Positions 41,179 to 45,958 of a stretch of 45,958 bases of DNA are shown in pieces. The notes beneath the pieces were generated by a model. It made no database searches, had not been told where the DNA came from, and worked only from the letters and a program-made list of their open reading frames with translations. This DNA is from Calditerrivibrio sp. (GTDB taxonomy: Bacteria > Chrysiogenota > Deferribacteres > Deferribacterales > Calditerrivibrionaceae), in the NCBI GenBank assembly GCA_026415135.1, contig JAOAHS010000024.1:1-45958 (forward strand). Reading direction: 5' to 3'. The stretch's first letter is position 1. Every line of letters begins with the position of its first letter. Both the position numbers and the translations under genes were made by a program.

Positions 41179-43174
41179 TTGTTTTTATCCCAAAATGTTC
41201 AAAGTTTACAGTTACCTTAGAGTTTTCACCACTACCTTCAATTTTAATTATTTTCCCATCTCCAAATTTTTCATGGGAAACCCTATCATAACCGATATCG
41301 CTTTTTATCATATTATGTTTGATCTCAAAAATGAAAGGTGACGGTTTTAGTATCTGGGGTTTTCCATAAAAAAGCCTTCTATTTACATGGCTTATAAAAA
41401 GCATTTCTTTCGATCTCGTAATACCTACATAACACAGTCTTCTCTCCTCTTCCATTTCCAAATCGTTGTCTATTGCCTTATATAGAGGGAAAACACCTTC
41501 TTCTAACCCAGTGAGGAAAACTGTATGAAACTCCAATCCCTTAGCAGAATGAATCGTCATCAATTTAATAAAACCTGTAGCATCCTCATCATTACTTGTA
41601 TACAAAGTGGCATCCGAAAGAAAATCTTTTAGTGTAAGTTCCCCATCTTCCTCTTTTTGCACAGCAGCATTTATAAGTTCATTTATATTGTCCATCCTTC
41701 TTTCAACTTCGTACATATCTTCATACTGAGATAAAAAATTTTCATACTCTATTTTGTCCACAATATTTTTGATCATCTCAGAAACTTTTAAATGTTCAAA
41801 TCCGTCAAACAGAACGATAAACTCATCAAAACTTTTTTTAACCCTGTCTGTAAATGTATTATAAAGCTCTTTTATAGATGTCAAAATATCTACACCATTT
41901 TCTAAGGTGAAAGCAGATACCTTTTCAATGGTTGCATCACCGATGTGTCTTGGTGGTATCTTTATAGCCCTTTTAAAAGACTGAATATCATAAGGGTTTG
42001 AGTAAAACCTTAAAAAAGCAAGTATATCCTTTATCTCTTTTCTTCCATAAAAACCTACGCTTCCTATTACTTTATAGGGTAATCTTTTATTGTTTAGCTC
42101 CACTTCAAAGTTTCTCGATTGGGCATTTGCTCTATAGAGAATAGCAATATCGTTGAGTTCTACTCCCAAGTTAACAAGCTCTTGAATTTTATTGGCAACA
42201 AAAGCAGCTTCCTCAATTTCATTCTCAAAACATTGTATTACCACATGCCCCATCTCCTTTTTATAGGATTGTAGCTCTTTAACCCTTCTATACCGATTAT
42301 TAGAAATCAGACAGTTGGCTGCATGAAGTATATTAAATCCGCTTCTGTAATTATCTACTAATTTTACAATTTTTACACTTGGGAAATACTGATCAAAGTT
42401 CAAAATATTCTTTATTTCAGCACCTCGCCAACCATAAATAGATTGATCATCATCTCCAACAGCAGTAACCCTTCCATCACTATCGGATAGATTTATGAGA
42501 AATTCCAATTGAATCCCATTCGTATCCTGAAACTCATCCACCAGTATATATTTAAAAAGTGTTTTGTAAAAGTACTTCACCTCAGGAAATCTTTTTAATA
42601 TTCTTAGGGCTAAGGAAAGCATATCATCGAAATCTATCATAGACATAGATTTCAAAACAGATTGATAGTTAGCAAATACTTCATCAAATTTGTACTCATC
42701 AAAAGATAAATTAACTTCGTTAACAAATTCCATAGTATTTTTAAAGTTACTGATCGAACTGAGATATATTTTTGGTGGGTATTTTTTAGAATCTATATTA
42801 AGATTTTTAAGAATGTCCCTTAAAATAGAAATTCTATCATCCTGATCTATTATCCCAAAATTAGGCGGTAAATCTATAAGATAACCATCCCTTCTTAACA
42901 TCTTTAAAGCTATTGAATGAAAAGTTCCTATCCAGATACCCCTACTCCTGTTTCCCGTCAAATTTGTTACCCTTTTGGACATTTCATCAGCAGCTTTGTT
43001 TGTGAATGTCATAGCCAAAATATTTTCTGGAGCAATGTTTAACTCTTTGATAATATAAGCAATCTTATGAGTAATTACTTTAGTTTTGCCTGTACCTGCA
43101 CCAGCAATAACCAACAATGGCCCATCATTATAAAGAACTGCATCTTTTTGAGACTGATTCAAATCGTCTAACAT
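41141..43174 (-). CDS. pcrA: UvrD/PcrA/Rep-type superfamily 1 DNA helicase
   Basis: An ATP-dependent 3'-5' DNA helicase for repair and replication-transcription conflict. The 677-residue protein begins LNQSQKDAV (Q motif), with Walker A VIAGAGTGKTKV, motif II VDEFQDTN, motif III VGDDDQSIYGWRGAE, motif V TIHSAKGLEFHTVFLTGLEE and motif VI RLCYVGITRSKE. The last 50 residues (SHEKFGDGKIIKIEGSGENS) match the Tudor-like RNA-polymerase-binding tail of PcrA/UvrD. Its ATG overlaps the speA stop by one base (TGATG). Confidence 0.93.
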   Translation of the reverse strand: MLDDLNQSQKDAVLYNDGPLLVIAGAGTGKTKVITHKIAYIIKELNIAPENILAMTFTNKAADEMSKRVTNLTGNRSRGIWIGTFHSIALKMLRRDGYLIDLPPNFGIIDQDDRISILRDILKNLNIDSKKYPPKIYLSSISNFKNTMEFVNEVNLSFDEYKFDEVFANYQSVLKSMSMIDFDDMLSLALRILKRFPEVKYFYKTLFKYILVDEFQDTNGIQLEFLINLSDSDGRVTAVGDDDQSIYGWRGAEIKNILNFDQYFPSVKIVKLVDNYRSGFNILHAANCLISNNRYRRVKELQSYKKEMGHVVIQCFENEIEEAAFVANKIQELVNLGVELNDIAILYRANAQSRNFEVELNNKRLPYKVIGSVGFYGRKEIKDILAFLRFYSNPYDIQSFKRAIKIPPRHIGDATIEKVSAFTLENGVDILTSIKELYNTFTDRVKKSFDEFIVLFDGFEHLKVSEMIKNIVDKIEYENFLSQYEDMYEVERRMDNINELINAAVQKEEDGELTLKDFLSDATLYTSNDEDATGFIKLMTIHSAKGLEFHTVFLTGLEEGVFPLYKAIDNDLEMEEERRLCYVGITRSKEMLFISHVNRRLFYGKPQILKPSPFIFEIKHNMIKSDIGYDRVSHEKFGDGKIIKIEGSGENSKVTVNFEHFGIKTIIAKFLKFYSSR

Positions 43175-45024
43175 CAGTTCTGTTCTTTGTAACTTACTAA
43201 TGTTTTTAGATAAGCATTCTCACTTAAATAAAGATATAGCCTGCCCAAGACATCCTTCCTTTTATCGTCACTTATATAGTCAGACTCTTCAATCAATTGT
43301 TTAAGCCTTCTTTCTATGTCCTTAATATCATAGTCAAGATCGTCAAGTATATCTAAAATATTCTGAGCCTCCAAAAGATTGGTTACCTCGTAATTACCCT
43401 CATCATCGAATACAACAGAAAACTCAGTGGGGTGCGTAAAAAGATTGTGTTGCATACCCAATATCTCCTGATAAGCACCAACAAGAAAGAAAGCCAAAAA
43501 ATACTCCTCTTTGTTTACATCCACATCATGTAAAAATAATGGTTTGCGTATATCAAATGCTATCTCTCCATCACTATCACAAGTTATATCCCACAAACTA
43601 GCAGACCTTGTCGGTTTTTCATTTAGTCTATCAAGGGGTGCAACAGGAAAAGTCTGACCCAATCCCCAATAGTCCGGTAAACTTTGAAAAAATGAGCAGT
43701 TTAATAAATATTTTTCCTGTATCATATTTTGGATAGTGAGTATCTCATCATATTTTTTATTTTTTAGTAAATCTACAGCTTTCTTGATAATAAGATGAAC
43801 CAATATCTCCGTATTACTTCTATCCAATAAATCGATGTAACCTAAATCAAAAAGTGTAAGCAACGATTCCATATGATCCAAACTGTCGTGCAGATACTCT
43901 ATCGCATTTTTTTCATTCATAAGATTGTAAAGCTCATAAAGCTCATCAATCAAAGGCGGATTTTTTGGCTTCAGCTGAAGTTCTCGTTGGTCATATTCCT
44001 GCGAAAAAAGCTCCAAAACCGGAGCAACCAATACCGCATGCTTTGCAGCCACAAACCTACCAGCTTCAATAAAAATATCTGGATCTGGGACATGCTTGTT
44101 ATGGGCAATGGTTTTTAATAGGAAAACTACGTCACTAGCATATTCTTCTAATGTATAGTGTCTATGGGCCAATCCTTCGTGTTGAGCATACTCCACGGCA
44201 AGGCCTCCACCAAGATCGATAGCTTTTAGATTGTGGGCTCCCATCTTGTATAGCTCTGCATGAATATTACCAGCTTCCCTCAAAGCTTTCTTTAAAGGTG
44301 AAATCTCACTGATTTGTGATCCAATATGGAAATGTATCATTGTAAAATATTCCAGCATATTACCATTTTTCAGCATGTTCATAGCTTCCAACAACTCTGT
44401 GGATGTAAGCCCAAACTTAGAATTTATACCACCACTTTTTGCCCAGATTCCTATACCAGAACTATGAAGTCTTATTCTAAGGCCTATTTTTGGATAGGGT
44501 TTGCCCATCTCTTTTGCTACAGTTAAAATGGTCTCAAGTTCGTTTAATCCTTCAATTGTAATGGTTATATCGTGCCCCATCTTTGCTGCGATAAACCCAA
44601 GTGAGATCATCTCTTTGTCCTTAAAACCGTTTACCATAATGGGACAACCACTGTTATTATAAGCCATAGCGATTATCAACTCCGGTTTACTACCAGCTTC
44701 CAAACCATAAGGCATACCTTTTGTCATCTCCATTAGGGGAATCACAAAATTTGGAAACTGATTGACCTTTAGAGGAAAAAGGGCATTAAAAGAACCTTGA
44801 TAACCATACTCCTTCATAGACTTTTTAAATGTTTTAAAAAGCATATCTATCTGCTCTTTCACAAGATGTGGGAACCTAATTAGTAAAGGTCCTTTATAAC
44901 CTTCATCCCTTATCTCCTTTACAATATCTATGATAGCCGGTTTTTTCCCATAATTAACCACAATCTTACCTTTTTCTATCTTAAAGTCCTCATCAGACCA
45001 GATTTTTATACCATAATCCATCAT
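43174..45024 (-). CDS. speA: Biosynthetic arginine decarboxylase
   Basis: SpeA converts arginine to agmatine for polyamine synthesis. The 616-residue protein is a PLP alanine-racemase-fold decarboxylase: K86 in LFPLKVNQF is the PLP lysine, and IHFHIGSQI, IDLGGGLAVEY and IFIEAGRFV are the binding segments; the C-terminal WDITCDSDG carries the conserved cysteine. A GGGGG-TAG precedes the ATG. On the minus strand a TATAAT lies at 45061-45056, some 32 bases before the start, but with no good -35. The gene diverges from the aro leader. Confidence 0.94.
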   Translation of the reverse strand: MMDYGIKIWSDEDFKIEKGKIVVNYGKKPAIIDIVKEIRDEGYKGPLLIRFPHLVKEQIDMLFKTFKKSMKEYGYQGSFNALFPLKVNQFPNFVIPLMEMTKGMPYGLEAGSKPELIIAMAYNNSGCPIMVNGFKDKEMISLGFIAAKMGHDITITIEGLNELETILTVAKEMGKPYPKIGLRIRLHSSGIGIWAKSGGINSKFGLTSTELLEAMNMLKNGNMLEYFTMIHFHIGSQISEISPLKKALREAGNIHAELYKMGAHNLKAIDLGGGLAVEYAQHEGLAHRHYTLEEYASDVVFLLKTIAHNKHVPDPDIFIEAGRFVAAKHAVLVAPVLELFSQEYDQRELQLKPKNPPLIDELYELYNLMNEKNAIEYLHDSLDHMESLLTLFDLGYIDLLDRSNTEILVHLIIKKAVDLLKNKKYDEILTIQNMIQEKYLLNCSFFQSLPDYWGLGQTFPVAPLDRLNEKPTRSASLWDITCDSDGEIAFDIRKPLFLHDVDVNKEEYFLAFFLVGAYQEILGMQHNLFTHPTEFSVVFDDEGNYEVTNLLEAQNILDILDDLDYDIKDIERRLKQLIEESDYISDDKRKDVLGRLYLYLSENAYLKTLVSYKEQN

Positions 45025-45104
45025 GAGCTACCCCCTATTTTACTTCCACGAAAATATTATATAAAAAATTCAAAAAGTCTATCGTTTTTTAAACAACATA
45101 GATA

Positions 45105-45133
45105 TTGACTTTAGTGACAAAACTGTATATAAG
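45105..45133 (+). promoter_or_regulatory. Promoter of the aro leader and DAHP synthase gene
   Basis: TTGACT (45105-45110) and TATAAG (45128-45133) are 17 bases apart. The predicted start, around 45140, coincides with the ATG of the leader peptide. The rest of the 115-base gap towards speA is AT-rich and holds nothing else that I can recognise. Confidence 0.65.
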
Positions 45134-45139
45134 TAGCCT

Positions 45140-45262
45140 ATGAATTGGAATATAGCCCATAAAACAAAAATCTGTAAAATTAATCCCTGTTACTCAGATA
45201 TCTATTCTTACTTTTTCTTCTTCTTTTACTTTTTCTTTTTTGGAGGATACCGCTTGAGGTGA
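45140..45262 (+). CDS. Phe/Tyr-rich leader peptide (40 aa) controlling the DAHP synthase gene
   Basis: An ORF from ATG 45140 to TGA 45260-45262. After a neutral start (MNWNIAHKTKICKINPCY) come SDIYSY, then five Phe, Tyr, four Phe, then GGYRLR. In all, 9 of 40 codons are Phe and 5 Tyr, with both TTT and TTC used. This is the hallmark of a leader peptide that senses charged tRNA-Phe and tRNA-Tyr. An in-frame TAG at 45134-45136 rules out an upstream start, no Shine-Dalgarno sequence precedes the ATG, and the promoter predicts a leaderless transcript. Regions that overlap its last codons can pair with the downstream terminator. Confidence 0.82.
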   Translation: MNWNIAHKTKICKINPCYSDIYSYFFFFFYFFFFGGYRLR

Positions 45263-45298
45263 TACCTGTTTACATTGGAAAACAGGAGCCGCAGGCGG
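45250..45298 (+). promoter_or_regulatory. Antiterminator pairing of the aro attenuator
   Basis: CCGCTTG (45250-45256), inside the last codons of the leader peptide, can pair over its full 7 bases (one G-U) with CAGGCGG (45292-45298). That second segment includes part of the left arm of the terminator, so the two structures exclude each other. A ribosome at the leader stop would cover the first segment; one stalled early in the Phe run would leave it free. Between them CCTGTTT/AAACAGG (45265-45271 with 45280-45286) can form a third hairpin. Confidence 0.6.
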
Positions 45299-45326
45299 GA
45301 GATCCCCACTTGCGGCTCTTTTTTTT
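45286..45326 (+). terminator. Attenuator terminator upstream of the DAHP synthase gene
   Basis: GAGCCGCA (45286-45293) pairs perfectly with TGCGGCTC (45311-45318). The stem continues through G-U and G-C pairs and an inner GGG/CCC closed by AGAT, and eight T follow (45319-45326). It lies 24 bases after the leader stop and 30 bases before the DAHP synthase ATG, so it can only act on this gene's own transcript. Confidence 0.9.
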
Positions 45327-45356
45327 ATATCTATAAACTTATAGGAGGTATTATAT

Positions 45357-45958
45357 ATGATTGTTGTAATGCAAATTGGTTCAAAAGAAAATGAGTTAAA
45401 TGAAGTTTGCAAAAAAGCAGAGTCTTTAGGTTTTACCCCACATATTATTTATGGAAAAGAGCGCAACGTAGTGGGACTGGTGGGCCTTGGAGATAGAGAA
45501 AACGTTAGAATAATTGAAGATTTACCTGGTGTAGATAGAGTTGTCCCCATTACAAAACCATACAAATTATCAAGCAGAGAAGTTAAAAAAGAGTCCAGTA
45601 TCGTTGAAGTAGGTGATGTAAAATTCGGAGGCGAAGAGATCGTTGTAATAGCAGGACCATGTTCTGTAGAATCTGAAGAACAAATAGTAAAAACTGCTGA
45701 ATATGTAAAAGCCGCCGGTGCAAAAATGCTTAGAGGAGGTGCATTCAAACCAAGAACCTCTCCCTATGCTTTTCAAGGCTTAGGTGAAGAAGGTCTAAAA
45801 CTTTTAGCCAAAGCAAGAGATATTACGGGATTACCAGTGGTCACAGAAGTAGTAAATCCAAAAGATGTAGATCTTGTTTACAAATACACTGATATGTTCC
45901 AAGTAGGAGCGAGAAATATTCAAAACTTTGCCCTTTTAACCATGTTAGGACAGACAGG
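45357..45958 (+). CDS. aroF: 3-deoxy-7-phosphoheptulonate (DAHP) synthase, N-terminal part
   Basis: DAHP synthase condenses phosphoenolpyruvate and erythrose-4-phosphate, the entry of the shikimate pathway. The ATG at 45357 has AGGAGG at 9-base spacing; 200 codons are visible before the window ends. Residues 1 to about 70 (MIVVMQIGSKENELNEV) form the ferredoxin-like regulatory domain of type I-beta enzymes, which gives feedback inhibition in the Thermotoga enzyme. The barrel follows: VIAGPCSVES, KMLRGGAFKPRTSPYAFQG and MFQVGARNIQNF. Expression should be limited by the Phe/Tyr attenuator just upstream. Confidence 0.93.
   Translation, partial: MIVVMQIGSKENELNEVCKKAESLGFTPHIIYGKERNVVGLVGLGDRENVRIIEDLPGVDRVVPITKPYKLSSREVKKESSIVEVGDVKFGGEEIVVIAGPCSVESEEQIVKTAEYVKAAGAKMLRGGAFKPRTSPYAFQGLGEEGLKLLAKARDITGLPVVTEVVNPKDVDLVYKYTDMFQVGARNIQNFALLTMLGQT

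Follow-up and report, generated by a model that had tools for sequence, protein, structure and literature searches.

The DNA analysed here (the window, 45,958 nucleotides) comes from the heat-loving bacterium Calditerrivibrio sp. of the phylum Deferribacterota, whose genome assembly comprises 1.98 Mb in 63 contigs and which belongs to the same genus as Calditerrivibrio nitroreducens (G001). Towards its end, an intergenic span of 332 bases separates two divergent genes: an arginine decarboxylase-type gene on the minus strand (43174-45024) and, on the plus strand, aroF (45357-45958), which is cut by the contig end. All parts of the putative attenuator described below lie on the plus strand. The leader promoter has a -35 box TTGACT (45105-45110) and, after a 17-nt spacer by which it was placed, an imperfect -10 box TATAAG (45128-45133). 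The -35 box keeps its position in 19 of 24 orthologous loci. In the window's genus the -10 box is weak, and in the window it was not called by a consensus promoter scan. The promoter proposed in an earlier note on this DNA thus stands as regards its -35 box, with a less convincing -10 box. The predicted transcription start, about 45140, coincides with the A of the leader ATG. Sequence, ORF translation and orthologue comparison define here a leader peptide ORF of 40 codons (45140-45262; YSYFFFFFYFFFF, = MNWNIAHKTKICKINPCYSDIYSYFFFFFYFFFFGGYRLR) with the C-terminal end ...YSYFFFFFYFFFFGGYRLR, in which 11 consecutive control codons read Tyr-Phe5-Tyr-Phe4 (45209-45241), as the earlier note had it. 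The Shine-Dalgarno sequence of aroF, AGGAGG, lies at 45343-45348, and the start codon of the gene at 45357 follows the end of the terminator after only 30 nt.

Downstream of the control codons, two mutually exclusive RNA structures can form. The intrinsic terminator (regions 3:4; 45285-45326) pairs 45285-45299 with 45305-45319 in a stem of about 14 pairs with one mismatch, followed by a T8 tail (45319-45326). Its energy is about -26 kcal/mol if the A:U extension is left out and -30.0 kcal/mol with flanks (z = -5.9). A terminator with T8 had been noted at this very place, with a stem length of 8 bp that proved too short. The antiterminator pairs region 2 (45250-45271) with region 3 (45280-45298), of which 45285-45298 are shared with the terminator, so that only one of the two structures can exist at a time. 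Its helices are 45250-45256/45292-45298, the pairing noted earlier, which is correct and forms only part of a longer stem, together with 45258-45260/45288-45290 and 45265-45271/45280-45286. The full antiterminator fold reaches -23.4 kcal/mol (z = -5.4), and the duplex is better than in shuffled sequences (p = 0.004). The leader stop codon (45260-45262) lies inside the 5' side of the antiterminator.

As the intergenic region is AT-rich and the genome holds six other seven-codon TWY runs, the hairpin could in principle act without regulation, as a simple terminator or an insulator of the divergent genes, and the Phe/Tyr ORF could be a translated T-rich accident. However, when 45025-45356 was shuffled 20,000 times with dinucleotides preserved, no 11-codon stretch of an ATG-started ORF held more than 8 Phe or Tyr codons, compared with 11 of 11 in the window. 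In a genome-wide run scan, 45209-45241 was the only leader-type seven-codon run; the others were rejected as leaders because they run antisense to genes or fall in chance frames. Moreover, the divergent orientation of the upstream gene means that the terminator is not the 3' end of an upstream operon, leaving only the leader RNA itself to be terminated.

To follow the locus through evolution, we searched the AroF sequence in 60 relatives and assembled an order-level set of 24 Deferribacterales aroF orthologues (at least 68% identity; L002-L025, the window's own included). In all 24, an ORF with a Phe/Tyr run precedes aroF, and a strong T-tailed hairpin follows the leader. The leaders differ at their N-termini even between congeners, whereas the Phe/Tyr run is kept and remains close to the stop codon, a pattern of preserved frame and run with drifting flanks that the earlier note had named as support for its reading. 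Across the last 12 leader codons, Phe and Tyr make up 69% of codons in frame, while the two alternative frames give 34% and 30%. Because frame, run and stop position persist across families whose flanking sequences have diverged, conservation largely refutes the idea of an unregulated terminator beside an accidental ORF, to which we give almost no chance. One congener (L003) has a leader with 11 Phe and no Tyr codons, which suggests that the main signal is probably Phe, with Tyr as an optional addition. The joint sensing of Phe and Tyr proposed earlier is therefore not universal. At another locus (L019), aroF is set apart from the terminator by some 110 additional bases whose ends are inverted GTCATTCTGAA / CTCAGGATGAC; this stretch resembles a small inserted repeat element.

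Base-pair conservation was counted in 12 well-aligned loci only, because a single 24-locus alignment misregisters region 3 in one family (f5). In the terminator, 97% of cells were paired and four pairs had changed on both sides; such both-side changes occupied 14 cells versus 4.9 in shuffles, and none of 500 shuffles scored as high. The antiterminator core was almost invariant, with 88.5% of cells paired compared with 29-45% when the strands were slid against each other, and its covariation within these 12 closest sequences did not exceed shuffle level. We ascribe this to region 3, which serves two partners and hardly varies. Of the compensatory changes anticipated for both stems, those in the terminator were thus found and those in the antiterminator core did not rise above shuffles, although the region 2:3 duplex itself was better than dinucleotide shuffles at p < 0.05 in 21 of the 24 loci. 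Combined over nine lineages, and without phylogenetic correction, the duplex yielded p ~3e-12. Likewise, regions 2 and 3 from the same locus paired better than lineage-swapped ones (mean -23.6 versus -18.3 kcal/mol; permutation p 5e-5, ancestry uncorrected).

The spacing of these elements also matches a ribosome-based switch. Region 2 mostly starts 8-18 nt past the last control codon, roughly as far as a stalled ribosome would extend. The leader stop codon falls within region 2 in 24 of 24 Deferribacterales loci. We also considered another cis-regulator acting on aroF, such as a T-box, a riboswitch or a protein-bound leader, since T-boxes control aromatic genes in Firmicutes. Such an element would leave both the leader ORF and the stop-codon geometry unexplained, and no Rfam family matched at gathering score, the weak matches being chance-like; we therefore consider it highly improbable. 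The enterobacterial Phe_leader family of Rfam likewise gave no match, either at gathering score or in a permissive scan.

Some leader-peptide attenuators, those of trp and phe among them, in addition carry a protector pairing (1:2), formed here by early leader codons. This pairing was significant in family f5 and in two of three f2 loci (third p 0.09); within f8 it was significant only in L010. In the window's family, f1, it was not significant (p 0.25-0.65), nor was it in f7. In the window, only the ribosome thus appears to separate region 2 from region 3, and without a supported 1:2 hairpin, read-through is tentatively predicted when the leader is not translated. Apart from this optional hairpin, every feature that we tested fits a leader-peptide transcription attenuator, as judged from sequence analysis.

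We then asked how translation of the leader might start. In 19 of the 24 loci, representing 7 of 8 lineages, the distance from the first T of TTGAC to the leader ATG is 35 or 36 nt, which together with a 17-nt spacer places the transcription start on the A of the ATG or one base before it. The leader is thus predicted to be leaderless, that is, without a 5' UTR. Alternatively, attenuation might be of the ordinary kind and differ only in initiation, the leader then having a longer 5' UTR with a ribosome-binding site at which translation begins. Such an arrangement is seen in the exceptions, a single genus-level clade (L021-L024, L015) in which a GGAG-type site is present and the promoter precedes the ATG by 50-63 nt, and Chrysiogenes-type loci also look Shine-Dalgarno-led. 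In the window, however, no Shine-Dalgarno sequence precedes the leader ATG, the TTGAC distance is 35 or 36 nt in all 19 loci outside this clade, and in an independent set, the trpE leaders of the same genomes, TTGAC stands 34-36 nt from the ATG in each of the 12 cases where it is present. For the window, initiation from a ribosome-binding site is therefore unlikely, and a leaderless start is the preferred reading. In C. nitroreducens (G001, loci L176-L192), TTGAC promoters with an ATG at 34-36 nt mostly precede long ORFs, which suggests that leaderless genes are probably normal in this species and common in the genus.

The regulated gene encodes a type I-beta DAHP synthase with an N-terminal ferredoxin-like regulatory domain. 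The aroF enzyme of Corynebacterium glutamicum belongs to another DAHP synthase subtype, and the DAHP synthase of Thermotoga maritima is inhibited by Tyr and Phe. Pfam domains PF18152 and PF00793 were found both in the partial product of the window's gene and in that of its congener, confirming the feedback domain that had been ascribed to the enzyme. As the window gene is partial, we used the full-length AroF of the congener for comparison, which matches the T. maritima enzyme (1rzm/3pg9). In relatives, aroF stands alone or as first gene, mostly alone. A second DAHP synthase copy lies in a pheA-hisC-aroF2-tyrA operon, at which no Phe/Tyr leader was found. That the attenuated gene encodes the pathway entry enzyme, and that the leader occurs only at this DAHP synthase copy, lends further support to regulation. 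An unsystematic look at pheS, leuA and hisG in the same genome, covering their surroundings and, at the first two, the DNA upstream, brought no leader to notice. A MAG labelled Thermodesulfovibrionales SKW34 (L032) carries a 75% identical AroF directly behind another gene and without a leader, as if the gene had been moved into another operon or the contig wrongly binned.

Upstream of trpE in the window's genome (G000 contig C40, L144; minus strand, 1432-2913), we observed a WWW leader, MMYCRVLNNRRNWWWTADII, which has the promoter-to-ATG spacing seen at aroF and is followed by a terminator ahead of trpE; relatives have it as well (L146-L168). Its WWW motif resembles that of Streptomyces trpL1 (RNWWWTA).

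Beyond the order, the Chrysiogenes-type loci L026-L028, from another class of the phylum, have aroF leaders with FFWQYYFR, YFWQFYFF and YFWQYYFF, combining Trp, Phe and Tyr codons. These leaders (YFW-Q-(F/Y)-YF) apparently start from a Shine-Dalgarno sequence, and each could possibly sense all three aromatic amino acids. Inspection of 80 more distant DAHP synthases, which belong to other phyla, revealed no comparable Phe/Tyr run ahead of a terminator.

Together, these data make it very probable that the window carries a ribosome-mediated transcription attenuator of a monocistronic aroF. Transcription would begin at the leader AUG or one base before it, and a ribosome would initiate on the leaderless 5' end. 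When charged tRNA-Phe is plentiful (and tRNA-Tyr, where Tyr codons exist), the ribosome would reach the stop codon inside region 2 (45250-45271) and mask this region, such that regions 3:4 fold as the terminator and the RNA ends near 45326. Upon shortage of Phe (or Tyr), the ribosome would instead stall in the run with its leading edge just before 45250, allowing region 2 to pair with region 3, so that no terminator forms and aroF is transcribed. By analogy with the Thermotoga enzyme, these amino acids may in addition inhibit AroF activity through the ferredoxin-like domain. The anatomy of the locus, its conservation, the terminator covariation and the mutual exclusion of the two pairings are direct observations, whereas the start site, leaderless initiation, stalling, termination and the direction of the response are what we infer from them.

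The mechanism itself is already known in other bacteria, even at this gene, and the present locus adds a case from a phylum new to it. Its closest counterpart in the literature is C. glutamicum aroR-aroF, where a leader with Phe-Tyr-Phe precedes a DAHP synthase gene (PMC4046766) and aroF transcription rises under Phe limitation, Tyr availability reportedly having no effect (Neshat et al. 2014, as cited in PMC11802643). In its features, this system is likewise a Phe/Tyr leader at a DAHP synthase gene in a non-proteobacterium, but it belongs to an actinobacterium, its control run is much shorter and Tyr is reported to be irrelevant there. In view of this case (PMC4046766, PMC11802643), the earlier note's picture of aromatic-gene attenuation as essentially enterobacterial was too narrow, while its guess of a non-proteobacterial lineage was right, the organism being a member of the Deferribacterota. 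Enterobacterial pheL-pheA and pheM-pheST share with the window a Phe codon run, mutually exclusive antiterminator and terminator, and a stop codon near region 2; unlike here, they act on other target genes, use a conventional ribosome-binding site and have the 1:2 hairpin. Leaderless attenuator leaders have been described for Sinorhizobium meliloti trpL (PMC7298713), for Streptomyces lividans trpL1, leuL and ilvL (PMC8079986) and, according to a reference in PMC4046766, for the C. glutamicum ilvB leader. Like the window's leader, these have their AUG at the transcript 5' end or no ribosome-binding site, but they come from other phyla and mostly sense other amino acids, and their starts are experimental whereas ours are predicted.

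According to a paper of 2010, leader-peptide systems had until then been shown only in Proteobacteria and Actinobacteria, to which it added Firmicutes (PMC2965389). Our literature search, which covered few subscription papers, found no published report of leader-peptide attenuation in Deferribacterota, so the present locus would extend this mode of regulation to a phylum without a report in the literature searched. Somewhat more speculatively, although we favour it, leaderless attenuators may be a standing design of the Deferribacterota, acting at aroF (Phe/Tyr) and trpE (Trp) with the ATG as transcription start; in the window's genus, the switch would do without a protector hairpin and the ribosome alone would decide, and in Chrysiogenes-type relatives a single leader would read all three aromatic amino acids. 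These loci, found in relatives that range from the same genus to a different class, form a natural series in which control codons, protector hairpin and mode of leader initiation vary independently, which makes it testable whether ribosome-polymerase coupling is as effective with a leaderless leader.
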